64,000 nt of DNA from Candidatus Peregrinibacteria bacterium RIFOXYB2_FULL_33_20 (GCA_001788835.1 MFXK01000022.1:1-64000), one strand, 5' to 3'. Positions 7,526 through 63,451 are shown, counted from the stretch's first letter. Notes: generated from the letters alone by a model not told the origin. Program-made: numbers and translations.

Positions 7526-7539
7526 TATTTTAAGTGTTT

Positions 7540-10500
7540 ATGGCAAATACTCCCCCACCAGGACCAAATACTCCCCCACCAGGACCAAATACTCCCCCAC
7601 CAGGACCAAATCAACCTAACATTGTTCCTGTAAGTTTTTGGCAAAGATTAACGCGTGGTAGAGTACAAACTCTTTTAACACCAACAGAAATAAATACAGT
7701 TAAACAAACCTTAAGTCCTTTGGCTGCAGATTACGATTTACAAATAACTGACATTCAAGAAAACACGACCGCAAAAACAATAAATTATGATCGCACCACT
7801 CATACCCTCACTGTACCGAATTTCTCCGAAGATCCACAAAAATTACAAAATCAAACTAGAGAAGCTTTGAGACAAGCCAAAAATCAGGAAATAAATGAAA
7901 TACATACAAAAGCTCAAAATACTTTAACTCATTTAATAGAAAAATATAAAAGGATCAAATTTGAACCCAGTAAAATAGCTCCTTATGAAATTCCAAAGGG
8001 CATGACCTTAAATCGACCGCAGTTATCTGCACTGCAATCAAGATCTGCAGACTTAACAAAAATGCAAGTTGCTATAGGACTAGTCACTGAAAGAAGACGT
8101 GAAATCTTATCTGGTCGTGGATGGAGGCAAGATTATCTTTTTGAATTCAGATGGGACAGCCAAAACACCACTCCTTTAAATACGCAAAAACAAAATATTC
8201 TTGAAGAATCAATAAACATAAATAAACCAATTCAGATAAGCCTTCCAGCTAATTTTCCACAACACGACCTAACAACTTTAATACAGCAATGCGTAAGTGA
8301 TCAAGACTTAAAACCTAATAGAGGACAAGCTCTGGGACCTTCTTCCAATACTAGACTACATTCCCAATTAAATGACCGATATTTAGATAATCCTGTTGTT
8401 GTTGCAAAAATCGCCAAATATTTAGATGCTATTCGTTCGGCATTAAATCCATGGCCTCAGGATTTTCATTTAATTCTGTGTGATAATTTAACAAATCCCA
8501 ATCAAGTAAATACGAAATCTGAATACCACCATATTGCCCAAATAGATGTTAGATTAATATGTTCAAAATCATTAACTGATATTTTATCTGCAGTTCAGCA
8601 AACCGTGGCACAAGTGTCCGCCACCGAACAGACAATCGAGACTAATAGAGCTATGGTTGAGACTGAAGTGAATAATTTATCAGGTATAGCAGGCCTTTAT
8701 AATATACAATTCACCACGATCGCCATAGCAAAATCTTCTCTTGATGAAGAAATGAGAGCTGTTGATCCAAAAGCTTTTCCAAACAACCAAAATTCACCAT
8801 CAAGACAACCTGTCCCGTTAGTTAATATGACTAAAACAGGTAATTCCATAATTTTTGCGCTTAATTATACGGAATTACATAATCATCCAAACAGTGTGCA
8901 AAATGAAGCATTAAGGCTGGCCAGAGACGAAATTGCCACGGAAATGCAAAAAGAAGAAGCTGATGCTGAACAAGCTTTAGACAATATTCAGCAAAATTTT
9001 GTGGGCGAAGGCAAAGGCATTACTGAGGTTGATCCCAATACAATTCCACCTTTATCAGATAATTTCAGAACTGCTGGCGGGGGAACAGATCTACCTAGAT
9101 TACAAAATCACCAATTAAATCTTATTGCTCTATTATCCATCAATCAAATTTTCTCAAATTTAAGCGATTACCAAAAAATGATATTATGTGGAGATACTGA
9201 TTATCAAAGACAAAATCCAGTCCAGAGTGCCGTATTTACCAAATTAATATGGTACCCTGATGCTCAAGGCAGGCAAAATCCAAACGGATTAATTATTCCA
9301 CCAAATCGGGCACAAGCTTATCCATTGAATCCAGATGGGATATTATTTCTAGAACCACTTGGTGATTTATTAGCTTTCAATAGTCAAGAGGCAGAACAAA
9401 TACTTATAAATCTTCTTCCAGACCAGGAACCGCCGCTTTCCGCAACAATTACCCCTGAATATCAACATCCATTCATGATGGAAAGATTATTTCAATTAGA
9501 AAGAGTCCCAGCATGTGGACAATTTTTAGTAGAGAGCATTTTTGATGAAACTGTCACTAGTAATAATCCAATAGACAGATTAGATAATAGCGATCCAAAT
9601 CATCCAAAAATGATATTAAAATCCAGTGATTTTGTCGGTAAAACTAAGCAGGAAAGTGAAAATTTGCTCCTATCACTAAGAAAAGAAATCGACAGTTATA
9701 CAGAAATGGAAACCGCAAGATCAGAGCTATCAAGCCAACATAATATTACTTTACCTGATGATGCTGCTATTTGCAGGACTATACGAAGGCTTGGTTTATC
9801 TAACCGGCGCGTATTTGAGTTATATTTTCAAGGTATTTTATTAATAGCTGATAATAATAGTTTAACACCGCCACCAACAGAAATCGCTTTTGAGCCAAGT
9901 GTCACTTGCCAATTTAGAGCAGTCAATTCCCCTGCCCGACTGGTATTACCTGCAGATCCAAGTTATTTCAACGAAAATTTATTAATAACAGAGCTAACGA
10001 CACCACCTGATCGCGATCCACGTTTTGACACAATCACACAATTATGGCGAGCTCTGGAATTAGATGGGGTAATAGAATGTCCTATTGTCATTGCCAGAAT
10101 TTCAGATCCTAGTTTAAATTCCATAGAAACTTCTGATGAAATGGTGGCTTGTATACTTACGGAGGATCAGGATTCGATGGCACAAGCAAATTATGTTTTA
10201 TTATTAAATATAGTTAAGGCCCTGGAAAAAGCTTTTGCACCAACTACCATTGAACATGGAGACTTAAAATCCTCTGCCCTTTTAGAAAGCTATGCCATCA
10301 CCTTATCTAGATTTTTAAGGGCGGCGACGGTGTCAGGTTTAGCATTGCCATCTGCACACATAGACAGCCTGGAAATATTATTTGATACTGATGCTGTTTT
10401 AGAATATGACAATCCAACAAAAGCTCTCGCAATTCCAGCTCAGATGACCACTTCTAATTTGGCTTTAACCTTAAAATTATTTAGTAATGCAAATGGAGCA

Positions 10501-16500: not shown

Positions 16501-16907
16501 GAGAATCTGTCCTGGATTTCTATCTACATCCACAAAATTTTGTCAAAGTGACTTTAAGGAAAATACCAGGTTTAAGAAAACTACCAAGAGTTATTTCCTC
16601 TACCAGCGAAAAATTTGACAAACTACAATCACGACAAAACATTTCTGTAAAAGAGGGACTAAAAAATGTAGCTTATACTGCCAAAGATCTAGCTGAAAAA
16701 AGCATGCACGCCCCATTGCATGTAGTTAAGGGAACAAAAAAAATCATAGCCAAGGTGGCCAGCCCTTTTAACGAACAGGCTCGAATTGCTGATTCAGAAA
16801 GAAAACGACAAAAAGTAGGCAAAGAAAGTGATGCTATTAGAGCTGATTTGAGCAGTGTTTTAGGTGAAAATTTTTTCAATAATCAACCTATAAATGAAGC
16901 AGCTTAA
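13539..16907 (+). CDS. large coiled-coil protein of unknown function (1122 aa)
   Basis: I do not recognise a family. The protein is rich in Glu, Lys, Gln and Ala with long heptad-like stretches throughout (for example about 190-700, and again at about 920-980, where a short GCEENLGKTEKEKTKQK helix is seen), suggesting extended coiled coils. The N-terminal 50 residues are polar and probably disordered. Around residues 105-125 there is a short hydrophobic segment (HKVVSRVVGITKGKILAIIP) followed by a polar linker. The C-terminal 130 residues are basic and amphipathic (for example HAPLHVVKGTKKIIAKV). It has its own extended -10 promoter and lies third in the cluster. A scaffold or structural role is possible but not shown. 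Confidence 0.85.
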   Translation: MGLNTSAQPGIPDSQEELEVRSGGSQAQGELSADQCKQINEQTEQVPPTDRLKELEQQLLSATPGSREAKKTAEARAQEIAVKVNIPLPNIVPTAAPHPQEHPVHKVVSRVVGITKGKILAIIPHQSSQAEQIEKGIQPGSAESKFEAEIKHRKGIAKLSSKLLPGLSYSKDLEAILSSIEAKFSQSKAMAESKEPKETVDYAPFMQELEQKTITTLLAITKKLEETLLHYIQSAQICRDHFWNIEKFEKEELEAILQAQELSNTFHNPLISFEAKIAKFHQSLEKSRPVINVLANYTENTAGKVQHDLAEKSLQEQRIDGFTQRDTKFSAQSTALTTLNIRDPETRSNFLQQTANLDSQSKTSATQKIDEALYVIDNIFLKPDGLLSESQAKRKELNQITQKFIQSRTEMESDYYLTSKHLKALADNLKKISPFIEMLDSLIESTMTEADYLENEILDIPATQTVKGLSHKHFKDTIAQARSLTSAGRIETPAHAIEMFKTQNKLREMVQKVTEYKSVSFDEQITRCAKNILPDLEEAQFTQLVDLEEKAFTAAQVIFEETKYNELKSQYEALEKGTEKLAFLRDVLAKSVETETKTENPEIKKIITEIDRIKTLPTDQLIAEYRMLMPDAKLDLTKPDTINAMEGALTRNYQAKLAILQKAQSEAPKTKAIAEFNTVKPSLDAIHSGYEAKNKGILDQVKAQSKALAEAIRKVRSEDSDFSKIRANHAALNQALTTFRKFAKEELCRNDEEMLTAFENSLDSAMTSQSADKMVNHYIEELYTLQKTYGKIPQAKWKTLRAGIMKLRENSFLFDSQALIMAHYIINSSPLKAPHIPEFARIKKIYFLSGGWARLERQSRYLHDGLMRGKLRNLGENSSFTYLLESKLGIRFGEDIRVKDDGTILNSAQEIELDDLTTELDRINNKITGCEENLGKTEKEKTKQKLSAKLTKYQTEKTELEKRKNELETNMKGTEKGARQTGYEATLRESVLDFYLHPQNFVKVTLRKIPGLRKLPRVISSTSEKFDKLQSRQNISVKEGLKNVAYTAKDLAEKSMHAPLHVVKGTKKIIAKVASPFNEQARIADSERKRQKVGKESDAIRADLSSVLGENFFNNQPINEAA

Positions 16908-17031: not shown

Positions 17032-20000
17032 ATGTCTTACATAACCAAACATAAGGTCTTCCTTTCAGATGTTTCTTTAAGAAACAGAGTAATTCACTTT
17101 GCTGGAGCCCAACCAAGTAGTGGACCATCGGTACCTTATGATCCTGATACAGATCCGGAGTTGCAGAATTATGAAACACAAGCGGAACAGATTCATCAGG
17201 TTGCCAGACAAAGTTTGCAAGCAGTGCAGGAAAATGTGGAAAAAGAACAGCAACTAAGAAGGAGCAATCCTTATGTCGAAGCAATTTATGGTGTTGTTGA
17301 TGATCGGACTCAAATACCTGGCTTAGAAGAGAGATATTTCGATCAACCGGAAACTATATTAGAGATATTAGGTTATATGAGACAGCAAAAGAGTATCGAT
17401 TCCGATAAAGACGCCAGGATTTTAGGCAAAATGTTAGATCCTCAAACTCAGATATTTTATTATAATCTCTTTAAAACTTTCCCTAACGAACTACCAGACT
17501 TAAATGATCCAAATTTTAAACGTAATTTCTATGATAAATTCCCAGCCAACCAAAGACCTGATATTAGTAAAGGATACCCGAAAGCCATGATTGTGATGTA
17601 TGAAAAGCTAAATGAATTTAAGAGAAAGTTAAAAGACTCTTATCACCGAATAAAAACCAATGAAGACATGTTAGAAATGGCTACAGACACTGCTAGTACT
17701 GCAAAAAATGTTTTTGAAAGATATTTTGTAAGCTTGCAGAGAGCTGGCCGGCAAATTCCTGAAAAATATTGGGCAATGGCTACTGGCATAGGATTAATCC
17801 TCGCTTGTACCAAGCAATATAGAGAGGTTGGTTTAGGGATTCTTGGCGCCTCAGTTTTAGGACAGGTGACTACCAGCGCAGAAACACCTTCTGCTGACAC
17901 AAAATGTACAAAAGAATATAAACAAGTTTATAAAAAGAGAGTCCTAAGACAAGGTATAGCAGGCGACAGAGCAATTAGCATGTTACAAAATATGTCAGTT
18001 ACCATCACCGGAGGAAAAAGTTTTAATCAAATTTGGGAGGCTTATACTACTGCAAAAAACAAACAATCTATTGATGAAATATATCAAAAATTTTCCAAAG
18101 AAGGACAGGTCCAGCAAAATGACATACCAAGGATAGAACATCGCTTAATTAACATCAAAAGCCAACAGGTGGCTTTCGAAGCTATGTTCGCGTTCGAAAA
18201 TAGATTTAAAGATCTAATTGATGACCTAAAAAAACCATATCCATTGGCTAACGGCAATACCATTATTCCCTGGGAATATATGATCCAAATGCCATTCGGT
18301 GATGTCGTCAATGAATTAACTAGGATGTCTAGAGAAAAACAATTAGGCGAAAATGGTCAAACTGTCACAAGTTATGTCATTAATTTTATCACCAGCACAT
18401 CAGCTGATATTAGTAGAAAAATCATGACAGAAGTAAATGAATTTGAAGAAGAATTTGGTGGCAACGGTGGTAAATTGTCATCAACCGCAAAGAATATTCT
18501 TAATGTGCCTGATGCTGATTTCTCAAGCGAAAGACAAACCCTACGAATGTACGGACTAGAATTTAAATTAACAAAATGGCTCAATGCAGATGGAAAAGAA
18601 ATTTACGGTACAGATACGAAAAATGCCGCAGGCGGCAAATTATATTATTACGATGCCGCAGGCGTAAGACAAGAATTAACCCTCTGGTTTGAAGAATCTG
18701 GAAAAACACAAGAAAATGAGACTAAACACATCCAAGAAATAGTCAAGAACAATATCATAAGAGAGAAAAACGCCTTAACCAAAAAACCAACTGGAGTTAA
18801 TCTAGCAGATCCAATTTGGGACGTAAAAAAAGAACAATGGCAAATAGACATAGATCTACCCGATTACCTGTCAACTCAAAAAACTCAAAAAAAGTTAAAT
18901 TTAAGCTTTGACATCGCTTTCAATGATGTACGCGAGAATCAATCGCCATACACCATCAGATTTAACGATCCGCAAGAAAAAAACAGCAAATATAATGAAC
19001 TTTTACCATATTTAGAAAGAGTTTATCTTCAACAGTTGACAGAAAACATGTCCAAAAATTTTGGGGTGAATACAGAAAATATCAAAATCAAACCTGATCA
19101 ACTTTTTGGTGTTGATGGTCAATTTAAAAACATCAATTCATTATCAATAGAAATAACTTTTGATGACAAAAAAGAACCGATGTTAGCCACAGCTAATTTT
19201 GATATCAATACCAAAACCTGGAGCCTGGAAATGATGCAGGCTGATAACTATGAAAAGTACCTGCATCTGATGTTAAAAAATTTAAAATCAGAATTATACA
19301 GTGTCCCAGAAAAACTCCTGGGAATCCCTATCCCTGGATTTCTCAGATCTTATTGGACCACACATTTTGAAGGTGTTTACAGTCCAGACAGCGCCACTTG
19401 GGAAGGTTTTATTACCGCTTTGGAGAGCTATCTTTTATCTAATTTAAATTCTAAAACCACTGATTCAGCGAAAAAAGACTATTTAAACGAAATGAGTAAA
19501 AAAATAGGAGAAACTATCAGCAAAATGAAAGATTATCAGACTGGCGGGACAAGGGAAGGAGAGGCTCTGCCTCCTGATATATTTCAGGGATGGCAAGAAA
19601 ATCTACAAAATCTCAATTTTAACCCGGATTATGAACTTGATGGTAAAAAATTACTCAAAAATTTAGATGATTTGAATTTCAATCAAGAAATTAAATTCAA
19701 AATTTATCTTAAATACAGAAACGACATTGAACAAGAATTAAAAGGACACGAAAACGAACCTCAGGCGCAGGAATATGCAAAATATGTAGCCCTAAAATAT
19801 AACGACGTTTATCAATTTATATATTCATTCTTCAAACGCGACTATGAAGATTTCGATGCGCATAAAGAATATTTAGATTTAGGCAAACATATTCCCACCT
19901 ATGAAGATTTCAAAAACCAAAATAAATGCGTAAGAAGAACTGAAAAAGATCCTGCAACAAAAGAAGAGATCGAATATGCCTATAATGCACAAATAGAAAA

Positions 20001-21369
20001 TGCCTTAATCAACATAGAACAAGAACTATTCCAAGAAAAAGATGTACAAAGCTTACTGCAGGTACCAAGACTTTTGGTCAAAGCCTCTGCCTTACGAATC
20101 AGATCGGAATATTTAAATAAAATTAAAAAAGGAGAAACAATCGATCCCCAAGCTTACAAAGACTATTTAGAAAAACGATTATATTTCGGAAATTTCTCTT
20201 CTATTGGCAATCAAACTAGTATCGAAAAAATACTACGCTATACCTACTCTGGCGCTGAGGATATCATTAGTTACATCAAAGAGCAAGGATTAGGCGGATT
20301 GCTTGGTAAATTAGCAAATATGCTGGGGGGAGCCATTGGTGATCTGATTGGCGCTATTCTTCATGGGACAATGTACGGCATCAAAAATGCTTTTGTAAGA
20401 ACTTTTGAAGGGGAAGAAGAATTCAAAACAAGCCACCCAGAGATATTACATGGCATTAGACCAATCTCAACAGACGCGCAATCTGCTTCAGGTGAAATTC
20501 CACCTGCCTCATCCGGACCTGATTTCAGACCATTACGTGTTGATCAACTTCAAGAAGATAATATCCCTTTCGTATTTGAAAAACCTGTTGATGAGAATGG
20601 AAATGTGATTTCAGATATTCATTTACAAACTTTTTATCCTGGGGAAATCTTAATTTATCAAGGTCAAAGAGTTATTAATTTAGGCAGTGTTAAACATGAA
20701 GAATATGTAGTGCAAAATGTGGAGGATAAAAGTATTTTCATAGTCCGAAAAAGAGAATTAACAAAAGCTCTTGGCAAACAACCATTAAACACATCAGCAA
20801 ATGCAATGCCTGGCGATATGATGACAATCATTGAAAATGGGGAATTAATAGATGTGGAAATAACAAAAGTTGGTGAAGGAGCAAAACCATATATAAAATA
20901 TCAATATTTAAATCATGCAATAGGTGAAACTCCAAAAACAGCTATTATATATTTAGGTGAACAGGCTTCAGGAATAATAGATCAAGAAGTTACCATACCT
21001 TCAGATATAACAAAAATAATGACTTTCTACGCTCATGGAACATCTATTGAATTATCAAGAACAAAAAAACAGATTCCACAAAGAAGCACAAATAATAAAT
21101 GTATAGTTTATGATTACAGTTATGATTTAAATTTATCTCCAGACGAAACCACTTACGCCTTGGATCAAAGCAAAGAAAGAGAATATGATTATTTACACGT
21201 TGTTTCCTCAGCCCAACCAAATAATGGGAATATTGGCGAAATAAGGATTAATAAATCAAGCCCAAAATCAATAGAGGTAAGAGAAAAAAACATTTCTAAT
21301 CAATGGAATGACTGGCATGTTATAGAGATCAACCAAATGCAAATATGGTTGGACAAGGTAAGTACATAA
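17032..21369 (+). CDS. giant protein of unknown function (1445 aa)
   Basis: I do not recognise a family. A polar N-terminal region (1-240) is followed by a hydrophobic stretch at about 245-285 (ATGIGLILAC and VGLGILGASVLGQV) that could be one or two membrane segments. The central 400-900 region looks alpha/beta, with several Tyr/Asp-rich stretches. A Gly-rich hydrophobic patch at about 1090-1125 (GLGGLLGKLANMLGGAIGDL) resembles a membrane-inserting or amphipathic helix pair. The last about 280 residues look beta-rich. No enzyme motif is evident. It is followed after 29 nt by the 317-aa membrane protein gene, with which it is probably co-transcribed. Confidence 0.85.
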   Translation: MSYITKHKVFLSDVSLRNRVIHFAGAQPSSGPSVPYDPDTDPELQNYETQAEQIHQVARQSLQAVQENVEKEQQLRRSNPYVEAIYGVVDDRTQIPGLEERYFDQPETILEILGYMRQQKSIDSDKDARILGKMLDPQTQIFYYNLFKTFPNELPDLNDPNFKRNFYDKFPANQRPDISKGYPKAMIVMYEKLNEFKRKLKDSYHRIKTNEDMLEMATDTASTAKNVFERYFVSLQRAGRQIPEKYWAMATGIGLILACTKQYREVGLGILGASVLGQVTTSAETPSADTKCTKEYKQVYKKRVLRQGIAGDRAISMLQNMSVTITGGKSFNQIWEAYTTAKNKQSIDEIYQKFSKEGQVQQNDIPRIEHRLINIKSQQVAFEAMFAFENRFKDLIDDLKKPYPLANGNTIIPWEYMIQMPFGDVVNELTRMSREKQLGENGQTVTSYVINFITSTSADISRKIMTEVNEFEEEFGGNGGKLSSTAKNILNVPDADFSSERQTLRMYGLEFKLTKWLNADGKEIYGTDTKNAAGGKLYYYDAAGVRQELTLWFEESGKTQENETKHIQEIVKNNIIREKNALTKKPTGVNLADPIWDVKKEQWQIDIDLPDYLSTQKTQKKLNLSFDIAFNDVRENQSPYTIRFNDPQEKNSKYNELLPYLERVYLQQLTENMSKNFGVNTENIKIKPDQLFGVDGQFKNINSLSIEITFDDKKEPMLATANFDINTKTWSLEMMQADNYEKYLHLMLKNLKSELYSVPEKLLGIPIPGFLRSYWTTHFEGVYSPDSATWEGFITALESYLLSNLNSKTTDSAKKDYLNEMSKKIGETISKMKDYQTGGTREGEALPPDIFQGWQENLQNLNFNPDYELDGKKLLKNLDDLNFNQEIKFKIYLKYRNDIEQELKGHENEPQAQEYAKYVALKYNDVYQFIYSFFKRDYEDFDAHKEYLDLGKHIPTYEDFKNQNKCVRRTEKDPATKEEIEYAYNAQIENALINIEQELFQEKDVQSLLQVPRLLVKASALRIRSEYLNKIKKGETIDPQAYKDYLEKRLYFGNFSSIGNQTSIEKILRYTYSGAEDIISYIKEQGLGGLLGKLANMLGGAIGDLIGAILHGTMYGIKNAFVRTFEGEEEFKTSHPEILHGIRPISTDAQSASGEIPPASSGPDFRPLRVDQLQEDNIPFVFEKPVDENGNVISDIHLQTFYPGEILIYQGQRVINLGSVKHEEYVVQNVEDKSIFIVRKRELTKALGKQPLNTSANAMPGDMMTIIENGELIDVEITKVGEGAKPYIKYQYLNHAIGETPKTAIIYLGEQASGIIDQEVTIPSDITKIMTFYAHGTSIELSRTKKQIPQRSTNNKCIVYDYSYDLNLSPDETTYALDQSKEREYDYLHVVSSAQPNNGNIGEIRINKSSPKSIEVREKNISNQWNDWHVIEINQMQIWLDKVST

Positions 21370-52747: not shown

Positions 52748-52776
52748 TTGACATAAATGATAAATTTATTTATAAT
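52748..52776 (+). promoter_or_regulatory. consensus sigma-70 promoter
   Basis: TTGACA (52748-52753), a 17-nt spacer and TATAAT (52771-52776), 24 nt before the ATG at 52800. It lies directly outside copy 2 of the GIY-YIG element. Confidence 0.8.
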
Positions 52777-52799: not shown

Positions 52800-53546
52800 A
52801 TGTCCACTCTAACGCCACCATCATTATCAATATTATTAGAGAATAATGAGTTTTGGGAGCCATTAAATCCGAAAGGTTTATTACAAAGATTAAAAAAAAT
52901 AAATTCAAGTATTCCCAATCAAGACCTGCAGATGCTGATAGGTCTTATCGAAGAAAATTTAAAAGAATTCTTATCAGCTAAATCGTTGTACTGTGAATGC
53001 GATGGTATTATTTTAGATATTGATCGAGATGACTCAGACTCCACATTAATGAATAAACTAGAAACTTTTTTACATCAACTAGAAGCTAAAGTAAATGATA
53101 TTAAGCCGCAAATTGAAATTGTCGGACCAGCAGCTTATGGCGATTTAATGGAACAGGTAAGAGCTATGATATTTTCGGTTATTAAGACATACGATCAACA
53201 AACGATTAGGATAGGCGGGCAAATGGTTACCATGGAAGGGCTAGATAATATATCGGTTAAAGTAAGCACTTATGATCCAGATCGGATGGAAGGGCAAGTG
53301 CTAGTACAAGCAGGACTAGTAATAGCCATGCTTGGCGAAGGCACTGTAAATATGCTGACACAGGTTACAGGTCTAGGTGCATACCTAAACAGACATTTGT
53401 TATTACCTATATCTGTAACTGAAAATCCCGGCTTACCATCATTAATGGAGCATATTATGCCAATAAGAATATCTGACCTAAATAATCCAACAAATGACTC
53501 AAAACGGAGAGCCTTAGGATTCTCAATAAAAAAGAAATTGCCATGA
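52800..53546 (+). CDS. hypothetical protein (248 aa) with one copy of the neighbour's repeat
   Basis: No known family. Residues about 35-105 (LQMLIGLIEENLKEF then CDGIILDIDRDDSDSTLMNKLETFLHQLEAKV) match the about 95-aa repeat found four times in the facing 503-aa protein. The C-terminal part (about 110-248) is different: alpha/beta, with VRAMIFSVIKTYDQQTIRIGG and AGLVIAMLGEG. No signal peptide. It ends 1 nt from the stop codon of the converging gene. A strong promoter precedes it. The shared repeat suggests it acts with the operon on the other strand. Confidence 0.78.
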   Translation: MSTLTPPSLSILLENNEFWEPLNPKGLLQRLKKINSSIPNQDLQMLIGLIEENLKEFLSAKSLYCECDGIILDIDRDDSDSTLMNKLETFLHQLEAKVNDIKPQIEIVGPAAYGDLMEQVRAMIFSVIKTYDQQTIRIGGQMVTMEGLDNISVKVSTYDPDRMEGQVLVQAGLVIAMLGEGTVNMLTQVTGLGAYLNRHLLLPISVTENPGLPSLMEHIMPIRISDLNNPTNDSKRRALGFSIKKKLP

Positions 53547-53547: not shown

Positions 53548-55059
53548 TTATCCACTCTGCGATATATATGAAGGCCAAGAAACACGAGTAGAACGTGATG
53601 ATGGGCTTGTCGTTCCTCTCAGTTGTCTAACTTCATCTTTAAGTTGTTTTATTTCCGCTGCCTCTTGCGTTACCTGAGCCTGAAATTGTGATATTTCAAT
53701 TTCCTTTTGTTTTATTTTTTCTCTAAATTCTTCTTCTTTTTTTATGGCATTTTCTTCAATTTGTTTAATTCTTTCTTTTACTTTTTTTTCTATTTCTTCA
53801 TCTATATTTACTTGACGAGAAAGCTTATTTATAAAATCTTTTAATTTTTCTCTTAATTTTCTATCTGAATCAGCTGGGTAGACATCTAAGATTGCTCCAT
53901 CTACATCGATATATACTGATCGTTCAACCCCCAGTATGCCGGTTTCTATACAATCTATTAACATATTATAATCTATATTATCTCCATAATGACCACGCAT
54001 TGCTTTTAATTGAGCTTCTATGTCTCTCCAATATATATCATCTAATTTCTGCTCTTCTTCTTCTGAAGCGAGCTGTTTAAGTTGGCCTACAAAAAAAAGA
54101 ATTTTTCTTTTCATTAACTTATCTGAATCTTTTTTGTCAATAATAAGATGCACAGGTCCAATATCTAGGACTAATGATTGTGCCACTCCTAGTTCATTAT
54201 TCTCTATCATTTCTTTCATGGCTTGCAGTCCGGGATAAAGGCTGACAGGAAAAATACTTTGAACATTGTCAAGTGCAGCTAATATATCTGTCCAATATTT
54301 TTTTTCAGCTTCAATTTCTTCCATGGCTTGATCAAAATCAATTATTGTATCAAACTTATCTTTATGTAATGCTTGAAAATCAGATACGAATCTTAATAAT
54401 TTGATAAGAATTGAATCAAGCGATTCACCCCTTTGAATATTAAGATTTACCGCCTTTTCAGTGTTAATTGCAAATGGAACTACCAAACCAAGCATATTCT
54501 GATCAATTAAATCTAATAATTCAGCAACTTGACTGGAAGTAGTAGTGCCTGAGAATTGTTTTTTGATGGCTATGAGTCCGGCGGTAATTGTATTCCAGAC
54601 CCTCCCCCGATCTTTGTTATCACCAACCGCTTCTCTGACTTTGATTTTAGTATCAAAATCATCTTGATGTAATACCTTCATTTCTTTGATAAATTTCACT
54701 AATTTACCAATGATAGAATCATCGCTATCACCACTATTTATATTTAATTTGACTGACTCATGTTCAAAAACAAAATCGCTTTTACCAAGCTCTTTTTTAT
54801 GAATTAATTCTCTTAATTCTGAAAGTCCGGAATAACAAGGGTCTTCTCTTAACAGTTGTTTCAAAAGAGTTATTTGCGCAACGATATCTCGCCAATATGT
54901 TTTTTCTTTACCCTCGATTAGGGGCTTAACTACTGTTTGTAAAGCTTCTCTTGTTACGATTGGCTCGCCGGGCGCAACAATAGCTCCCTCTAATGGCTGT
55001 ACTTGCCCATCTTCTTCTCTTCCTATACCTTCTATGTCGTTATTTGAGAGGACTGTCAT
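53548..55059 (-). CDS. four-repeat coiled-coil protein (503 aa)
   Basis: No known family. Four tandem repeats of about 90-100 residues (about 55-150, 155-250, 255-340, 345-420). Each starts with a YWxDI or VWxxI helix, then a (E/D)LI(x)(x)xxLG segment, a strand and a conserved DSDxxIxxKLxxFIxxLxxL helix: NSGDSDDSIIGKL, QRGESLDSILIKL, DKKDSDKLMKRKI, PADSDRKLREKL. The last about 80 residues (425-503) form a long charged coiled coil with a Ser/Thr tail. It overlaps the AAA+ gene by 4 nt (ATGA), so the two are translationally coupled. It may be an adaptor for the AAA+ protein. Confidence 0.82.
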   Translation of the reverse strand: MTVLSNNDIEGIGREEDGQVQPLEGAIVAPGEPIVTREALQTVVKPLIEGKEKTYWRDIVAQITLLKQLLREDPCYSGLSELRELIHKKELGKSDFVFEHESVKLNINSGDSDDSIIGKLVKFIKEMKVLHQDDFDTKIKVREAVGDNKDRGRVWNTITAGLIAIKKQFSGTTTSSQVAELLDLIDQNMLGLVVPFAINTEKAVNLNIQRGESLDSILIKLLRFVSDFQALHKDKFDTIIDFDQAMEEIEAEKKYWTDILAALDNVQSIFPVSLYPGLQAMKEMIENNELGVAQSLVLDIGPVHLIIDKKDSDKLMKRKILFFVGQLKQLASEEEEQKLDDIYWRDIEAQLKAMRGHYGDNIDYNMLIDCIETGILGVERSVYIDVDGAILDVYPADSDRKLREKLKDFINKLSRQVNIDEEIEKKVKERIKQIEENAIKKEEEFREKIKQKEIEISQFQAQVTQEAAEIKQLKDEVRQLRGTTSPSSRSTRVSWPSYISQSG

Positions 55060-57686
55060 TGTTTAAATTTATTCTTATTAAGATCGAAAATTAGTCTAGC
55101 AAAACCAGATGTTCCGTCTAGTATGTCCTTAAAATGTTGAAGATTTATTGCACGAGCTGGATCTTTTAGGATTTCAGGAATTTTGTTAAACTTTATAAGG
55201 TCCACCTTTGCCACATTTTTGAGTGCTGGATCTTGCCTTGGCATGGCTTCATATTTATGGCCATACCTCTCAATATATGGTATTAAATCATTTAAGGCGT
55301 TAGCTATATCTGAGATAAAATCAGACGGTCGTCTAAAGGTGGCAGGCGTTAGCGCAGGAAGACTGGTATCTCGTGTCAAAGCTAAAACTTGCCGTTCATA
55401 GTCTTTATATTTACTAGTATATGTACGAGATTCTTTATAAATCGTTGCTAATGCCGCTAATCTATCATTAAAACCAACAATAAGTTGTGTGGCGGCCTCA
55501 AGCAGTTCTTCCAATGAAGCAGCCTGAGCGTCTTTTAAGGTATTAATTAAATCGGCAACATGTAGCCAGAGAACTGTCGTTTGTTTTAATTCCATTTGTT
55601 CAATCAATTGATTGGTAATTCTAACTTTTTTGCTTTCAAAATCATCATCAGGTGTAAACACAACAGGAAAAACCCTTGGCTTTTGTCCCTCACAAAACTC
55701 TACATATTTATTATAAAATTCTTCTATTTTACTTTTCAAAGGATGTTCTGTGATTTGAATATCTCTTTTATTAAAAGGGTCTAACATGGCTACTTCAGAG
55801 GGTTCCAAATGCTTTTGGGTAGTAATTTCTAATCTAGCGTTTGCAAATATATCCTTCGTAACAGAAGTTGTAAGAGACGTAAAGTCTGCATCATTGACAT
55901 ACACAAGCCCTTCATCTTCAGTTTGAAAAACTTCTCTTTTCCAGCCATGAAAAAATCCATGTCTATATAATATTTGAATAAGAATCTTTCTATCTGGATT
56001 GCCTAATCCAGCTCTTTTTATAAATTCCAATAATTTAGCCTCAATATAAGTTAAGAATTTTATGCGAGCGCCTTGTTTATCCTTTGCATATTTCACCTCT
56101 TTCCATTGATTAAATAAGCCTATTAAATAACCAGATTCAAATACAGAATTTTTCAAATGAACACTTTTATACTCTTTTTGAATTTCTTCAGCCGCTAAAA
56201 CTAATTCAAGTAATGGCGATGTCTGATCAGTACCAATTTTTCCACCAACTTCATCAATAGATAAATCCATGCTACCATCCTTTCGTGCAAGTTTTGGTAT
56301 TAAGAATCTATCATACATTTCTTGCGGGGTATAATATGGTACCTCAAAGCTACCGAACGTGAACTCTCTTCTGTAATCAGCAGGCAGCTCACTTCTGTCT
56401 TTATGATGCGCTCCTTTTTCGTTCCTCGTAACTATTACACGAAAATGAGGTGGAATTGTATACATTTGACCTGTATCTCTATGAAAAAAAAGATCACCCG
56501 GTTTAAGACCAAGTAAAAATTTTATTTCAGCTAACTGTTTTGGATCAATTCTATTATCTTCATCTATAATAAGGACTGTATCGTTTTCAATAGCCTGAAT
56601 TGCTGTGCCAGGATTTCTTTTACCTTGACCTGCCGCAGAACCATAGAATGTACTGGCATAAACACCGGGACCACCTGATAACACCACTGGTTCCCTGCCA
56701 TCACAAAATAATTTTGCGGCATAAATAGCTATTTGTGTTTTACCTGTCCCCGTTGGTCCTGTAAACTCAACATTATCACCATTCCTTAAACAGGATAAAA
56801 TATACTTTGAAGCATCATGATTCCCACGAATCATTTTCAATCTGGATTCCGTTTCTACATATTTCTGTCTTTTTAAACCTCTGACGGTTTTGCGTGGTGT
56901 CCATTTCTTGACAATTGTAGCATCTCTTATAATTTCCTCTATTCTTAATGCTTGAGCTATTCGATAATCTTTGGCTTTTAGTTCGTCAATTGTAGTGTCA
57001 GATTGCTTTATAAGATTATATAATCTCTCTAAAACCTGCTCATCACTTCTATTATAATCTCTGCCTTCTGAAGAAACCCTATTATGGATATTTTGAATTT
57101 CCAAAGCAGCATCACTCATTAAATCCCGCAAGATTGTGACAAATTGCTGCCCTGCAAATGTTTTGTCATCAACATTTAGTTTCATTGATTTTTTTTTACC
57201 AGTTCCATCACGTTTTACAAGTTCACCTTTTTCATAAGCTGTTTTCATTTTTCTCATCCTATGATATTTTTCAATTATAATCTTAAAATAATCTTGATAG
57301 GCTTTTAATATATTTTTATTACTCAAAAGCTCCCTCAATCTACCAACAACTTCATTTATTTCCTGTTGTTTTGAATAATTAGGATCCTTACTCTCTAAAT
57401 ATCTTGCTATTAAATCATCGTCAAATAAATCACTAAAATCCACACCATCAGAACCAAATATTAAAGCAGGTAAATTCGCTTCCTGCACAGTATCAATCTG
57501 TTGTTTACGTCCTTTTATTTCATTTATTCTTCCAATTAACGCTCTAACCTCAAAAACATATGGCATCAAATTTTTATCAATTTGCTCTAATCCTTCTCCC
57601 TCTTCTACTAAATCCTGCCTGTCTTCACTTCTAAACCTTTGCGCTAATTGACCTGCCGTAGATAATCTAAAATGTGTATTTTCCAT
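55056..57686 (-). CDS. MoxR/AAA_5-type AAA+ ATPase (876 aa)
   Basis: The central domain (about 285-470) is an AAA+ ATPase of the dynein-related/MoxR type: Walker A GPTGTGKT at 310-317, Walker B VLIIDEDN with Asp375-Glu376, sensor-1-like VIVTRNEKGAHH, and an Arg-finger region ELPADYRREF. The N-terminal (1-280) and C-terminal (480-876) helical regions are long and match no family I know; ordinary MoxR proteins are about 330 aa. The gene lies between a TGase/VWA giant gene and the repeat-protein gene. AAA+ ATPases next to VWA proteins are typical of MoxR-VWA, NorQ-NorD and Mg-chelatase systems, which remodel or load cofactors into target proteins. Confidence 0.88.
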   Translation of the reverse strand: MENTHFRLSTAGQLAQRFRSEDRQDLVEEGEGLEQIDKNLMPYVFEVRALIGRINEIKGRKQQIDTVQEANLPALIFGSDGVDFSDLFDDDLIARYLESKDPNYSKQQEINEVVGRLRELLSNKNILKAYQDYFKIIIEKYHRMRKMKTAYEKGELVKRDGTGKKKSMKLNVDDKTFAGQQFVTILRDLMSDAALEIQNIHNRVSSEGRDYNRSDEQVLERLYNLIKQSDTTIDELKAKDYRIAQALRIEEIIRDATIVKKWTPRKTVRGLKRQKYVETESRLKMIRGNHDASKYILSCLRNGDNVEFTGPTGTGKTQIAIYAAKLFCDGREPVVLSGGPGVYASTFYGSAAGQGKRNPGTAIQAIENDTVLIIDEDNRIDPKQLAEIKFLLGLKPGDLFFHRDTGQMYTIPPHFRVIVTRNEKGAHHKDRSELPADYRREFTFGSFEVPYYTPQEMYDRFLIPKLARKDGSMDLSIDEVGGKIGTDQTSPLLELVLAAEEIQKEYKSVHLKNSVFESGYLIGLFNQWKEVKYAKDKQGARIKFLTYIEAKLLEFIKRAGLGNPDRKILIQILYRHGFFHGWKREVFQTEDEGLVYVNDADFTSLTTSVTKDIFANARLEITTQKHLEPSEVAMLDPFNKRDIQITEHPLKSKIEEFYNKYVEFCEGQKPRVFPVVFTPDDDFESKKVRITNQLIEQMELKQTTVLWLHVADLINTLKDAQAASLEELLEAATQLIVGFNDRLAALATIYKESRTYTSKYKDYERQVLALTRDTSLPALTPATFRRPSDFISDIANALNDLIPYIERYGHKYEAMPRQDPALKNVAKVDLIKFNKIPEILKDPARAINLQHFKDILDGTSGFARLIFDLNKNKFKQ

Positions 57687-57708
57687 TTAAAGTGATTATT
57701 TTTAAAAA

Positions 57709-57722
57709 ATCTTTATATTATA
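57709..57722 (-). promoter_or_regulatory. promoter of the AAA+ gene
   Basis: On the minus strand TATAAT (57722-57717) is followed by ATAAAGAT, close to the shared tail ATTAAGAT. The AAA+ gene starts at 57686. So the AAA+ gene can be expressed separately from the giant gene upstream. Confidence 0.5.
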
Positions 57723-57731
57723 TATCAGAAT

Positions 57732-60700
57732 CTATACTTTATCAAGTATGTGATGCCACGCGGCCGCTTTCTTGCGTGGATAATCTAATAAATTTCTACA
57801 GTGATATCCTGCTTCTGTTGGATCATAAGGGTTAAAATAAGCATTTTTTACTTCTCCGCCATCATTGCCTAAACCATAAGCAATAACTATAATCCCCAAT
57901 CTTCTAAGTTTGGCAAGTGCAGGTGTTAATTTATTTATATCCTTTGTTCCGCCATCAGAACTTACTTCCACTACTTCTAATATTGGTTCTATATCCTGAA
58001 CATATTTTTCCAGAATAAATTCTTTCCAATCATTGAATAATTCAATTAAAGTTTTTTCACTAAAATCATAGCTAGATAAAAAATCTGTTTGATCTGATGT
58101 CAGGGCATAAGGGTCAATAATGTGCAACATCACGTTATTCAACGGATCATCCTGCAAAACCTGTAATTCATTTTGTTCAGGCACAGTTAATCTTCTTTGT
58201 TGGCTCTGGTTATATAAATCATACCATCTGACTAAATTAGTGTTTCTTGTGCCTTGCACTCTTAAATTATCTAAATGAACTTGTGCTTCAGGTGTAATTT
58301 CACGGCTATATTCTTGTTCTTCTAACTCTGCAAAAGCGTTTATCTCTCTAACAAGAAAACCTAACCTTATTTGGTCTATAGTAAGAGGGGTTTCAGCAGC
58401 TTCTTGTTGATTTTTTTGGATAATCGCTAGATTCTCATCTATAATTTCCTGATGTATAGCAATTAAGGGATCAAAATCATTTGTCCCTCCGGTAGTATTC
58501 TCTGCCATTTTCCACACCGCCGCCTGTTCAAGTTCGTTAAAGTTTGGCGATAAGGCTTTTAATTTTCTGAATTGCACCAAATTACCATTTTCATCCGCGA
58601 CCGTAGGAGTCCCGAACATCCATGTCTCAGATTCAAACCTTAAATCTCTGCCTAATTGATCAGATATTTCATTTATTTCTTCCTGTTTTTCAGCAATAAC
58701 ATGATTTTCTAATACCTCTATCTGCTGTTGGGTTCTCATCTTATCGCCCTGTCCGTAAGAAGCCGCCATACTACCACTCCCATCCAATATTTTTCGTTTA
58801 CGTACTTTTACTATTTTAAGTTCTGGTTTTTCTATGGTTTCTCTAACCATAAAAGATGGAGAAGCATCTTTACCAGCTTCTATATCGTTATCAAGCTGCT
58901 CTGGATCGATTAATATTGGATTTGGTCCATCTTCAACAGGATATCTTGGCATTTCAGCATCCACTATACTTTCAGAAATAATTCTATCATACATACTCCT
59001 CAGCTCATCAATAAGCGGCAGATTGAGAATATTATTAAGATCTTGTCTGAATTCTTTTATAAATCTAGCCAATTCTCTTATCTCTTCTATAGACAGTTGA
59101 GGATATTTATTCCTCATCTCTATTTCATTTTTATCTTTTAACTGATCTTGTTCTTGCTTTGGCGTGGATTTTGATTGGTCACTATCTTTTATAGATGTTT
59201 CTAAGTCTTCTTTCCTTTGAGTGGTATCGCCAATATTTTCTTCCATCTCTTTATACATTTTTTCAAATTCTTCATCTACATCAAAATCTTCTGCCGAATC
59301 ATCTTCAGCTAACTCTTCTTGTAATGCCTCCAGTTCTTTCTGACGTTCTTCTTCTCTTGCTTCTTTATCTGCTGCTGATTCCTCAACTATTTTAGTCTCT
59401 TCGGCTTGTTTTTCTAAACTTTTTTTCCCTTTCTGGCCTTCTTTCTCCCTACCTTCCTCTTCACTTTCTTCTCCGCCTTTTCCTTCTTTGGCTTCTTCTT
59501 CATCACTTTCAACTGTTTGATCACCTTTGCCGTCCTTCCCTTCTTTTCCTTCACCTTCTTTTTCTTCACCTCCCTTACCTTCTTCTTCACTTTCTCCGCC
59601 TTTTCCTTCTTTGTCTCCTCCTTCTCCCTCCTTGCCCTCCTTTTCATCACCATCACCCTCACCTTTGCCATCTTTCCCTTCTTTTTCTCCACCTCCCTTA
59701 CCTTCTTCTTCACTTTCTCCGCCTTTTCCTTCTTTGTCTCCTCCTTCTCCCTCCTTGCCCTCCTCTTCATCACCATCACCCTCACCTTTGCCATCTTTCC
59801 CTTCTTTTTCTTCGCCTCCCTTACCTTCTTCACTTTCTCCGCCTTTTCCTTCTTTATCTCCTCCTTCTCCCTCCTTGCCCTCCTCTTCATCACCATCACC
59901 TTTACCATCTTTTTTACTTTTCTCTTTGCCTCCTTTACCTGCTTTGTCCCCTTCACTTTTTCCATCTTTTCCGCTGCTTTCACTTTCACCTCCACTCTCA
60001 CCACTGCTTTCACCGCTGCTTTCTTCACCGCTCTCTCCTTCTTCAGATTTATTACCAGATTGAGTATCTACACCACCATCATCCACATCCTGAGAAGGCT
60101 TTTTTTGATTGTCTTTTTTATCGGATGTCTTTTTGTCATCTTTCTTCTTGTCTGCCTTTTCTTTATCATCCTTTTTCTTATCTTTTTTATCTTTCTTGTT
60201 TCTAGGATCATTTGGATCTGGATCTGGGGTTGGATCAAATCTAACCCACTGCTTACCGTCCCAGATACTAACCCAAGCATGCCCATTTGACGAATTAATC
60301 TCAGAATTACCAGCCTGATTTACACCCATCACATGATGACCAGTCATTAATCTAGCTTCTACTCCAATTTCTCTAAGCATTGCAATCATCAAGTTCGCGG
60401 CACTATAACACTCTAAATGAGGTGATTTATCCAAATTCTGAATATAATCTGCCGCAGTTGAATTCTCTCTAAGATATGATTGAAGCTTAACGGCATTATC
60501 TAATATCTCCTTTTCATTTCTACCAAACGGATAAAAATGGTTCTTTCTTATATAATCTCTAATTTTTGTAGCTTTGGCTAACCTTTCATCACGTAACAAA
60601 GATTTTTTTATAGCTCTTGCTTCTTTGATAGCATTTTCTGATGCCTGCGAAAGCGTACCTGAATACATTTTACTCAAATCCTCACTCACAGGTCGAGCTG

Positions 60701-62315
60701 ATTGAAAATTAGCTTCTTTATAAAAATCCACTTTCAAATGAAATGACTTACCATCTAGAATCCTAAAAGAAAAATTACCATTAGAATCTCTATATACAAC
60801 TACTCTATGAGCCTCCTGTAACGAATTGATATCAATAGCATAACCATAAGGCAAAGGAATTGATAAAATATTAAGACTATTCACATCACCTTCTATCTGA
60901 AATTTAGGGCCTTCAAATTGAGGGTTAGTCTTATAAACAGATTGCTTAGCAATATCTTCCCAGGTTTTATCATCTTTATCATAATGACTTTTATGATCAA
61001 CTATGCAATAACCATCTTTTTTAAAGGGTGGGAATATTTCCAGTTTATAGCCTTTTCCACTTGGATCTTTTTCAAAAGCATTTTTTCCTCCTGAATCTGG
61101 TGTCGTATATTTTTTCTTTTTTGTCGGAGAGGAAGGAGCTTGCCCACCTTGCTGATCATCTTGTCCACTTTGTTCTCCTTCCTGATCACTCCCCTGCCCT
61201 TGTTGTTCCCACGGTTCCTTCTCTTGTCCTGATTCGCTTTGATTTGAACCATCTTCACTTACTTCATCCTGCTCGGCTTCTTGAGCATCTTGCCCTGACT
61301 CACTTTGATCTCCTGCCTGGCCTTCGCTTTCTTGTGCTTGTGGCGATTGATTTTCCGCCTCTTGATGAGCTTCTTTCTCTGGTCCTATTTCTTCAATCGC
61401 TTCTTCTACTGCTTCCTCCATCCTCTCTTCTACCTTTGCATCTTCTGCTTTTGTCTTTTCCGCCCTTGCTTCCTCCTCTGCTTTCTTTTCCTCCTCTGCT
61501 TTTTTCTTCTCCTCCCTTGCTTTCTCCTCTGCTTTCTTTTCCTCCTCTGCTTTTTTCTTCTCCTCCCTTGCCTTCTCTTCTGCTTTCTTTTTCTCCTCCC
61601 TTGCTTTCTCTTCTGCTTTCTTTTCCTCCTCTGCTTTTTCTCCTATTTTTTTCTTTTTACGTGGCTTCCAGTTCTCTTTATCTTTATCCAAAAAATAACT
61701 ATATTGTGGTATAATATACTGATTTATAATAAGCAACTTTTCCCCTTCACTTCTTCTGGGGTCAATAAGTTTGAGCAGCGAAGATTGAATATCTTGTAAA
61801 GCCCCTTGCACCTCTGCATCAGTTACTTCAAGGCCGATAAGACCGACTATAAATTGTATGTGAGTTGGTAAATCATCTTTTTTCACTAATTTTTCTATAC
61901 CTGATCTTGATATTCTTTTTAATGATTCAAAGTATATAGTAGGAATGTTAGGATCATGCAAAGAAATATACTGAAAAAGCACACTATAAAATAATCTATA
62001 TTTAGATTTTGGCTCCTCCACATAATGATCATAAACCTCAATTTCACTTGTATATTTCGGATTAGATCTGAGTTTTATTTGCAGTTCTAATGACTTAATG
62101 CTTGATATTATTTGTGCTATTGCATCATCCAATTCTTTTTTCTGAAGAATATCCCCATTAATATTGACATCTATTTTATTTCCAGTCGCTTTTACGCTAA
62201 CCAACTTTTCTTGATCAGCAACGAAATGGACGTCGGCATTGGGATATACACGTTTTAATGAATTTTGGACATCAGATAAACTATGCTGCTCCGATGACTG
62301 TTCTTCAGACGGCAT
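57732..62315 (-). CDS. giant transglutaminase-like and VWA domain protein (1527 aa)
   Basis: Order: a helix-strand-strand-helix N-terminal region (about 1-80); a helical region to about 210; a Lys/Glu/Ala coiled coil (about 220-310); a Gln/Glu/Ser-rich linker (about 320-410); a mixed region (420-600); a transglutaminase-like domain with a Cys636-His679-Asp694 triad in ECYSAANL, GHAWVS and RFDPTP; a Lys/Glu/Gly tandem-repeat linker (about 735-1000); a helical region; and a VWA-type domain with MIDAS motif D1178-G-S-G-S1182 and TTGGTNDFDP. There is no signal peptide, so it is probably cytoplasmic. A VWA domain next to an AAA+ gene suggests a MoxR-VWA machine; the TGase part adds possible amide cleavage or cross-linking. 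Promoter of the shared class upstream. Confidence 0.88.
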   Translation of the reverse strand: MPSEEQSSEQHSLSDVQNSLKRVYPNADVHFVADQEKLVSVKATGNKIDVNINGDILQKKELDDAIAQIISSIKSLELQIKLRSNPKYTSEIEVYDHYVEEPKSKYRLFYSVLFQYISLHDPNIPTIYFESLKRISRSGIEKLVKKDDLPTHIQFIVGLIGLEVTDAEVQGALQDIQSSLLKLIDPRRSEGEKLLIINQYIIPQYSYFLDKDKENWKPRKKKKIGEKAEEEKKAEEKAREEKKKAEEKAREEKKKAEEEKKAEEKAREEKKKAEEEKKAEEEARAEKTKAEDAKVEERMEEAVEEAIEEIGPEKEAHQEAENQSPQAQESEGQAGDQSESGQDAQEAEQDEVSEDGSNQSESGQEKEPWEQQGQGSDQEGEQSGQDDQQGGQAPSSPTKKKKYTTPDSGGKNAFEKDPSGKGYKLEIFPPFKKDGYCIVDHKSHYDKDDKTWEDIAKQSVYKTNPQFEGPKFQIEGDVNSLNILSIPLPYGYAIDINSLQEAHRVVVYRDSNGNFSFRILDGKSFHLKVDFYKEANFQSARPVSEDLSKMYSGTLSQASENAIKEARAIKKSLLRDERLAKATKIRDYIRKNHFYPFGRNEKEILDNAVKLQSYLRENSTAADYIQNLDKSPHLECYSAANLMIAMLREIGVEARLMTGHHVMGVNQAGNSEINSSNGHAWVSIWDGKQWVRFDPTPDPDPNDPRNKKDKKDKKKDDKEKADKKKDDKKTSDKKDNQKKPSQDVDDGGVDTQSGNKSEEGESGEESSGESSGESGGESESSGKDGKSEGDKAGKGGKEKSKKDGKGDGDEEEGKEGEGGDKEGKGGESEEGKGGEEKEGKDGKGEGDGDEEEGKEGEGGDKEGKGGESEEEGKGGGEKEGKDGKGEGDGDEKEGKEGEGGDKEGKGGESEEEGKGGEEKEGEGKEGKDGKGDQTVESDEEEAKEGKGGEESEEEGREKEGQKGKKSLEKQAEETKIVEESAADKEAREEERQKELEALQEELAEDDSAEDFDVDEEFEKMYKEMEENIGDTTQRKEDLETSIKDSDQSKSTPKQEQDQLKDKNEIEMRNKYPQLSIEEIRELARFIKEFRQDLNNILNLPLIDELRSMYDRIISESIVDAEMPRYPVEDGPNPILIDPEQLDNDIEAGKDASPSFMVRETIEKPELKIVKVRKRKILDGSGSMAASYGQGDKMRTQQQIEVLENHVIAEKQEEINEISDQLGRDLRFESETWMFGTPTVADENGNLVQFRKLKALSPNFNELEQAAVWKMAENTTGGTNDFDPLIAIHQEIIDENLAIIQKNQQEAAETPLTIDQIRLGFLVREINAFAELEEQEYSREITPEAQVHLDNLRVQGTRNTNLVRWYDLYNQSQQRRLTVPEQNELQVLQDDPLNNVMLHIIDPYALTSDQTDFLSSYDFSEKTLIELFNDWKEFILEKYVQDIEPILEVVEVSSDGGTKDINKLTPALAKLRRLGIIVIAYGLGNDGGEVKNAYFNPYDPTEAGYHCRNLLDYPRKKAAAWHHILDKV
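59522..59897 (-). repeat. imperfect tandem repeats coding a Lys/Glu/Gly linker
   Basis: Three successive units of about 138, 123 and 115 bp start at 59522, 59660 and 59783 on the plus-strand numbering. They code (G/E/K)-rich sequence such as GEGDGDEEEGKEGEGGDKEG in the giant TGase/VWA protein. The units are nearly identical and differ by small in-frame indels, as expected of repeat expansion. Confidence 0.85.
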
Positions 62316-62462: not shown

Positions 62463-62508
62463 TAATAAAAACAAAAATTCCCTCTCTTAATATTACAAGA
62501 AAGGGAAT
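62463..62508 (-). terminator. terminator of the trypsin-like protease gene
   Basis: On the minus strand AATTCCCT and AGGGAATT with inner TCTT/AAGA form a hairpin, followed by TTTTTGTTTTTATT. It lies about 47 nt after the stop codon at 62555. The surrounding 239-nt gap (62316-62554) has no other feature apart from the operon promoter. Confidence 0.75.
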
Positions 62509-62554
62509 TATCATTTTACATTTCAAATATATTAATCTCCTCACTCCACTATTT

Positions 62555-63451
62555 TTACATCTCTGGAAGAACATCAAATCGAATAGTAGAATCCTGAACA
62601 TTATCTTTAATCCACGAAGTAAGTGATCCAATATCTGGAGAAGTAGTAGTTCCATGAAGATCACAAACATAAAAATAATTCCAAGTATTTACACCACTAA
62701 GATAAAATTTGCCATTAGCTGGACTTTTTAAATAAATTGGACCACCAGAATCTCCCGCACAACTACTACCAAGCTTACTGCCAGTTTTTTTGGCAATAGC
62801 CATATTAAATGTCCATCCAAATTGTTGACTAACAGGACTAAGATCTGGCCAATCCGTATCTGATGAACTCACATTTTGGACCATTGCTCCTGCTGAACGT
62901 TTTACTCCAACAGTACTAGCCGCATTAACATATCTCGTTGCTCCATAACCAATCATTACTCCTTCAGTTCGATAATCCGCCTTTGTTAAAGGTCGAGAAT
63001 TTAATACTGGAAGAGTAATATTAGAAACAGGTGTTTCAAGAGTTAAAACAGCAACATCATAATATGAATAACCAGTACTGAAATAAGTAGAAAAAGCACC
63101 AGGTAAAGTTACTGGAAAATTCGTATTATATACTCCATTAGCTACACCAACATGATATTTAACTCCATTTAATTCATAAACAAAATTAATTCCGTTATTT
63201 TCTCCAAAAGGATCAAAACCCATCGTTTCAGAATAAATACAATGTCCAGCAGTTAAAACAGTTGTAGTGCCAATAAGAGTGGCTGAACATAACGAAAAAT
63301 CATCTACTGATCCTCCTTTTATATATTCCAGATAACCTGCTTCTGGATAACCTGTTTCTACTACACCATTGCCAACAGCAATTACATTAAAAGGTAATGA
63401 TAATATTGCTATTATCAACGTGAGATTAACAATCAACATATGTTTTTTCAT
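62555..63451 (-). CDS. secreted trypsin-like serine protease (S1)
   Basis: 298 aa. Signal peptide (MLIVNLTLIIAILSLPFNVIA). Chymotrypsin-fold triad: His70 in TAGHC, Asp132 in YYDVAVLTL, Ser235 in CAGDSGGP. Cys pairs around His70 (C55/C71) and before Ser235 fit the fold's disulfides. It is therefore an exported endopeptidase. The residue six before the catalytic Ser (at the S1 pocket base) is Gly or Ser-like (KLGSSCAGD) rather than Asp, so trypsin-like specificity for Lys/Arg is uncertain. It is monocistronic and ends in a terminator. S1 proteases are not common in small fermentative bacteria. Confidence 0.92.
   Translation of the reverse strand: MKKHMLIVNLTLIIAILSLPFNVIAVGNGVVETGYPEAGYLEYIKGGSVDDFSLCSATLIGTTTVLTAGHCIYSETMGFDPFGENNGINFVYELNGVKYHVGVANGVYNTNFPVTLPGAFSTYFSTGYSYYDVAVLTLETPVSNITLPVLNSRPLTKADYRTEGVMIGYGATRYVNAASTVGVKRSAGAMVQNVSSSDTDWPDLSPVSQQFGWTFNMAIAKKTGSKLGSSCAGDSGGPIYLKSPANGKFYLSGVNTWNYFYVCDLHGTTTSPDIGSLTSWIKDNVQDSTIRFDVLPEM

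Follow-up and report, generated by a model that had tools for sequence, protein, structure and literature searches.

An AAA+ ATPase paired with a transglutaminase-VWA protein in Candidatus Peregrinibacteria: a putative NorQD-like machine with a lineage-specific accessory protein

A stretch of 64,000 nucleotides (nt) from Candidatus Peregrinibacteria bacterium RIFOXYB2_FULL_33_20 (GCA_001788835.1, MFXK01000022.1:1-64000; hereafter the window) carries three consecutive genes on its minus strand, which encode a protein joining a transglutaminase-like (TGase) domain to a VWA domain, a long ATPase of the MoxR clade of AAA+ proteins, and a protein with four repeats and a coiled coil. On balance, the first two genes probably specify a single ATP-driven enzyme machine and the third a lineage-specific accessory, putatively an adaptor or scaffold that recruits clients. 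By analogy, the pair can be read as an AAA+/VWA engine of the NorQD kind to which an acidic linker joins a thiol enzyme, a reading in which we infer both the reaction and the substrate. It is favoured because the catalytic triad and the key metal-binding residues of the VWA domain are invariant among 28 diverse proteins, the ATPase accompanies 26 of 27 evaluable loci, the ATPase core matches NorQ bound to NorD, the order of domains is NorD-like, and the family profile matches VWA domains of known structure as well as the TgpA transglutaminase. The third gene is included because it shares 4 nt with the ATPase gene and because the order is kept in two other Ca. Peregrinibacteria genomes (G057 and G062). 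An earlier note on this DNA had given the sizes, strand and 4-nt overlap of these open reading frames, all of which proved exact when the window was re-read.

57732-62315, minus strand: TGase-VWA gene, 1527 amino acids (aa), from open reading frame
55056-57686, minus strand: MoxR-clade AAA+ (AAA_5) gene, 876 aa, 45 nt after the TGase-VWA gene
53548-55059, minus strand: four-repeat/coiled-coil gene, 503 aa, overlapping the ATPase gene by 4 nt

The transglutaminase-VWA protein

The 1527-aa protein contains the following regions:

61620-62315, minus strand: N-terminal domain, residues 1-232, shared with the G057 protein (alignment)
60231-60500, minus strand: Transglut_core, residues 606-695, with C636, H679 and D694 (Pfam)
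59031-60218, minus strand: flexible acidic linker rich in Glu, Asp, Lys and Gly, residues 700-1095, net charge -58
57735-58808, minus strand: C-terminal VWA domain with metal-ion-dependent adhesion site (MIDAS) (alignment, profile comparison and residue conservation)

Pfam recognises the TGase-like domain with a score of 45.3 bits (cut-off 23), and its Cys-His-Asp triad is invariant in 28 of 28 homologues, close relatives included, as the earlier note would have predicted. The C-terminal region was assigned to VWA because homologues exceed the Pfam cut-offs, the family profile matches the solved VWA domains of TRAP (E = 3e-5) and integrin, and a MIDAS is present; the domain of the window protein itself falls below Pfam detection. 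The same profile matches the TgpA transglutaminase (3.7e-5). The MIDAS of the window protein consists of D1178-x-S-x-S1182, G-G-T-N-D at 1276-1280 and D1454, with a large insert between the second and third motifs. D1178 and S1182 are found in all 28 proteins and D1454 in 27 of 27, while position 1180 is Ser or Thr and the second motif varies among members. Both domains named in the earlier note are therefore real. The linkers of the G057 and G062 proteins are also acidic and are shorter. No transmembrane stretch or signal-like segment was found in the 1527-aa protein (maximum 19-residue hydropathy 1.24), which is predicted to be cytosolic; as no membrane segment is present, the proposed activity would take place in the cytosol.

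The ATPase

The AAA+ core of the 876-aa protein was delimited by motifs, model and structural matches:

55947-56789, minus strand: AAA+ core, residues ~300-580

AAA_5 was detected at residues 308-437 with 29.5 bits against the Pfam cut-off of 22, and the core holds a Walker A motif (GPTGTGKT), a Walker B motif (LIIDED), sensor-1 (TRNE), R431 and R440; G310, G313, G315, K316, E376, N422, R431 and R440 are invariant across 16 diverse ATPases. Long helical N-terminal and C-terminal regions flank the core. In the predicted structure, confidence (predicted local distance difference test, pLDDT) is ~85-92 over most of residues 300-580, and residues beyond 700 are modelled as helix at low confidence. 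The best structural match of the modelled core is NorQ bound to the VWA domain of NorD (TM-score 0.75 by target), and the first 14 matches in the PDB are all NorQ chains, mostly with the NorD VWA domain, and CbbQ chains (TM-score 0.71-0.77 by target), a likeness that the earlier note had missed. NorQ and CbbQ are MoxR-clade motors with VWA partners. By its motifs and its predicted fold, the window ATPase is a MoxR-clade protein of the NorQ/CbbQ-like kind. No close relatives of it were found in viral contigs.

Conservation of the pair across the Patescibacteria

Searches over the order, the class and the phylum (Patescibacteria) yielded 28 fusions of TGase and VWA domains, so that this architecture, which the earlier note could not fit to a named type, is not peculiar to the locus and recurs across the phylum. 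A long AAA_5 ATPase gene adjoins the TGase-VWA gene in 24 loci and lies one gene away in two (L103 and L107), giving 26 of 27 evaluable loci; L101, which ends at a contig end, was left out of this count. The homologues are accordingly neighbours rather than scattered genes, and the MoxR-like AAA+/VWA module described in the earlier note is both real and co-inherited, with its TGase triad intact. Three-gene order, for which the note had suggested looking, recurs in G057 and G062 at about 40% identity (36-39% for the ATPase, 42-44% for the TGase-VWA protein and 32-36% for the repeat protein). As the ATPase alignment, when run against 84,980 species, returned these two genomes only, the exact three-gene module is rare. 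In a phylogeny built on the TGase and VWA segments, the window, G057 and G062 group together with 100/100 support within a nine-member clade (clade A), and the other 19 rows form the sister side. The assemblies sampled are fragmentary. No relatives were found for the window TGase-VWA protein in phages or for the TGase-VWA protein of a relative (L098) in plasmids.

The resemblance to NorQ and NorD also suggests a different role, namely that of a chaperone for maturation or assembly, comparable to NorQD or CbbQO; the TGase domain would then help to process or mature one dedicated client enzyme. The best structural matches (NorQ/NorD and CbbQ) and the NorD-like domain order are consistent with such a role, as are known operons of MoxR type that contain a TGase, for example the co-transcribed PA2875-PA2874-tgpA (PMC3507681). 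However, no constant client gene lies beside the nine clade-A loci compared, and the intact pair is patchily distributed (6 of 89 genomes of the order by ATPase search), which speaks against a universal housekeeping client; a dedicated chaperone is considered unlikely.

Parallel VWA proteins in which an HExxH (zincin-like) motif replaces the TGase domain were observed at L021, L109, L110, L111 and L112; an AAA ATPase gene adjoins the zincin-type VWA gene in L021, L110, L111 and L112, and a reverse transcriptase lies near L109 and L110. The N-terminal domain of the TGase-VWA proteins was considered as a counterpart of the HExxH domain of these relatives and set aside, as hhalign gave 41.6% probability with an alignment that misses the active site. 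At L106 (5539-8937), a TGase region continues in frame into a serine recombinase domain, which gives the appearance of an interrupted or fused TGase-VWA gene.

The repeat protein and its single-repeat neighbour

The third gene and a convergent 248-aa gene share a repeat unit, and the features of both are listed below. The four units and the coiled coil of the 503-aa protein come from the model, the units also from a profile built on the window's own units.

54664-54909, minus strand: repeat unit 1, helix-helix-hairpin-helix
54361-54612, minus strand: repeat unit 2
54070-54306, minus strand: repeat unit 3
53818-54042, minus strand: repeat unit 4
53614-53817, minus strand: C-terminal coiled coil, a long helix at residues 399-482 in the model
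52800-53546, plus strand: 248-aa gene, convergent on the repeat gene with 1 base between
52842-53090, plus strand: fifth repeat copy, residues 15-97 of the 248-aa protein (unit profile)
52748-52776, plus strand: sigma-70-like promoter TTGACA-17-TATAAT, a perfect consensus match only, ~24 nt upstream of the 248-aa gene

The AlphaFold model of the 503-aa protein predicts helix-helix-hairpin-helix units followed by the coiled coil. The four repeats do not depend on the window alone, as the profile detects four units in each of the two independent homologues (E = 2e-5 to 2e-16; the first unit of G057 is partial). No usable fold match was found in the PDB (best E = 0.81, with a moderate model), and searches of Pfam, NCBIfam and PADLOC returned no family beyond coiled-coil noise. 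The protein is present only in the window, G057 and G062, all Ca. Peregrinibacteria; the dedicated repeat adaptor of the earlier note thus stands as a protein with genuine repeats and is confined to three genomes. The conservation that the note implied for the 248-aa gene did not hold up, as no homologue was found in the 88 other genomes of the order and the gene occurs only in the window's own genome.

Proposed mechanism

The domains, the pairing, the gene order and the intactness of the catalytic and metal-binding residues are established; from these we infer ring docking, catalysis and an adaptor role along the following lines. The 876-aa ATPase would form a ring, as its NorQ and CbbQ relatives suggest, on which the C-terminal VWA domain would dock in the manner of NorQD, its MIDAS metal holding a client or a neighbouring protein. 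The flexible acidic linker of ~400 residues would tether the TGase-like thiol enzyme to the VWA domain, so that ATP hydrolysis, by turning or pulling the VWA domain and linker, could present the bound client to the Cys-His-Asp site. At this site the client would most likely be cleaved, with cross-linking or deamidation as possible alternatives. The four-repeat/coiled-coil protein would serve as the client-recruiting adaptor or scaffold, and the 248-aa protein encoded convergently, with its single repeat, could be a competitor for the same surface. The earlier note had suggested a machine that remodels or processes large proteins, for which no direct evidence was found; overall, its MoxR-like AAA+/VWA module with a TGase is supported, while a fusion peculiar to the locus, a wide conservation of the adaptor and the processing of large proteins are not.

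Several observations count against this mechanism. The TGase-VWA gene at L097 (genome G404) has no detectable AAA neighbour, contig ends having also been checked; transglutaminase-like folds can be non-proteolytic; and the models of the ATPase and the repeat protein are moderate overall (mean pLDDT 67 and 68). In addition, the unit profile, run over 241 genomes of the class, otherwise found only the 248-aa gene, and genomes bearing the pair are among those without the repeat protein. As it is absent from the other class genomes sampled, the repeat protein is not essential to the core pair of ATPase and TGase-VWA protein. Its absence from more than 200 other genomes of the class, some with the pair, would also be expected if the three genes were an incidental neighbourhood and the repeat protein were unrelated to the AAA+/VWA pair. 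However, the order is kept in three genomes whose ATPases have diverged to 36-39% identity, the genes overlap by 4 nt in the window, and the repeat-bearing rows form one fully supported clade (100/100) on the TGase-VWA tree, which makes a chance neighbourhood very improbable.

Retroelements in the sister clade

The sister clade to clade A differs in its association with diversity-generating retroelements (DGRs), which the earlier note had also missed. A reverse transcriptase is encoded at ten sister-clade loci (L068, L069, L070, L099, L100, L103, L104, L105, L107 and L108), that is 10 of 19 against 0 of 9 in clade A (Fisher p = 0.0098, which is indicative only because rows share ancestry and some contigs are truncated). 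Template/variable repeat pairs were identified in nine of the ten, all except L068, and 268 of 285 mismatches, pooled over all pairs, lie opposite A. In seven loci (L069, L070, L099, L100, L103, L105 and L108) the 3' end of the ATPase gene, which adjoins the TGase-VWA gene or, in L103, lies one gene away, is itself the variable repeat; the variable repeat of L104 and L107 is at another place in the locus. L068 has a reverse transcriptase and a variable-type ATPase tail, with no template/variable pair satisfying the criteria used. Several loci encode a separate protein of ~310-340 aa that has a related variable tail at its end, and such tails occur at L018 with no reverse transcriptase on the stretch read. 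The notion that Patescibacteria DGR loci generally carry TGase-VWA genes was rejected, as 0 of 20 random DGR loci have one nearby; the link to DGRs is therefore particular to the TGase-VWA/ATPase family. No template/variable pair was found in the window, so that a DGR is recognised at the sister-clade loci and not there, and this evidence bears on the window solely through family resemblance.

These retroelements raise the possibility, here regarded as rather doubtful, of a conflict (immunity-like) or recognition switch like that proposed for MoxR-vWA ternary systems: the AAA+/VWA pair would detect an invader or a partner cell and then license the TGase-like protease to act as effector. The sensor would be the repeat protein in the window and the hypervariable C-terminus of the ATPase in the sister clade. 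Such a switch would accord with the A-biased repeats and their position at the ATPase 3' end, with the patchy distribution of the intact pair, and with known DGR-diversified MoxR-vWA sensors that have peptidase effectors (PMC7159879, PMC10907252). Against it, RVT_1 was not found in the window genome, G057 or G062, nor at any clade-A locus, and searches of the four window proteins with Pfam, NCBIfam and PADLOC revealed no VMAP, TIR, caspase or other conflict domain, with no PADLOC match at the window locus. The DGRs of Patescibacteria may instead serve host attachment. A survey of DGRs recognised no domains on most targets in the candidate phyla radiation (CPR) (PMC8144416), and in the judgement of another study the CPR/DPANN DGRs of clade 5F have no link to the domains of conflict systems (PMC10907252).

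It can be suggested, tentatively, that the Patescibacteria possess a distinct family of ATP-driven recognition-and-processing machines, in which an AAA+ ring and a TGase-VWA protein are aimed by an interchangeable module, a retroelement-diversified ATPase tip in one clade and the repeat protein in the window lineage. If so, the known AAA-type retroelement targets of the CPR would acquire a protease as partner, and immune-like action or partner recognition would become a candidate role for them. Why Patescibacteria hypermutate ATPases is a standing puzzle, and the presence of such ATPases beside VWA proteins with an intact thiol-enzyme site turns it into a specific, testable hypothesis. The window locus, as a DGR-free branch, offers a simple three-gene version for study.

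Genomic context

The window belongs to a small genome (1.5 Mb in 42 contigs), and the closest named relatives at the locus are Candidatus Peregrinibacteria. In some genomes of the same class, genes of this locus are read through TGA, which is also a feature of the Gracilibacteria. Just upstream of the TGase-VWA gene lies a gene for a trypsin-like protease with a signal-like N-terminus (62555-63451, minus strand), separated from it by a terminator-like hairpin (62476-62509). Very long open reading frames occur elsewhere in the window on the plus strand, at 7534-13011 (1825 aa), 13539-16907 (1122 aa) and 17032-21369 (1445 aa). No second MoxR-VWA locus was found in the window genome among the AAA_5 matches whose loci were inspected, the others of which include ClpB-, ClpC-, FtsH-, RuvB-, DnaX- and ComM-like proteins.

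Comparison with known systems

In NorD, a linker connects an N-terminal domain to a C-terminal VWA domain, which NorQ engages via a finger in its pore, remodelling the linker (PMC13036017). The window pair shares with NorQ/NorD the fold of the AAA+ core (the best PDB match), a partner built in the order N-terminal domain, linker, MIDAS VWA domain, and the pairing of the genes. In contrast, the window partner includes a TGase-like domain, its acidic linker is far longer, and the window ATPase has 876 aa with long extra helical regions, whereas NorQ chains have ~250 aa. NorQ/NorD acts in metal insertion into nitric oxide reductase, and the window has no nitric oxide reductase context.

PA2875 is a MoxR-like AAA+ protein, and the PA2875-PA2874-tgpA operons resemble the window in encoding MoxR-like AAA+ and TGase-like components together. 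However, TgpA sits in the membrane and has its TGase domain in the periplasm (PMC3507681), whereas the TGase domain of the window is soluble and fused to VWA rather than separate and membrane-bound. The MoxR-vWA ternary conflict systems (VMAP, iSTAND, FtsH and beta-propeller; Kaur et al. 2020) similarly combine a MoxR and vWA core with a third protein, include peptidase-type domains (rarely TGase-like), and in some cases are linked to DGRs. They differ in that the window shows no VMAP, iSTAND, FtsH or beta-propeller domain by Pfam, carries its TGase domain on the vWA protein and not on the third protein, and belongs to a clade without DGRs.

Finally, the sister-clade ATPases, with their hypervariable C-terminus beside a DGR reverse transcriptase, are like those DGR targets of the CPR in which a C-type-lectin domain is fused to an AAA ATPase (Paul et al. 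2017, as presented in PMC10907252), while the C-terminus of the window ATPase is predicted to be helical, at low confidence, and has no DGR. No paper was found to describe a TGase-VWA partner of DGR-target ATPases, a prior mention in Paul et al. 2017 being possible; to these targets the sister clade adds an enzyme-bearing VWA partner. Among the systems compared, the window locus is of the MoxR-VWA kind, distinct from the VMAP and TgpA types.

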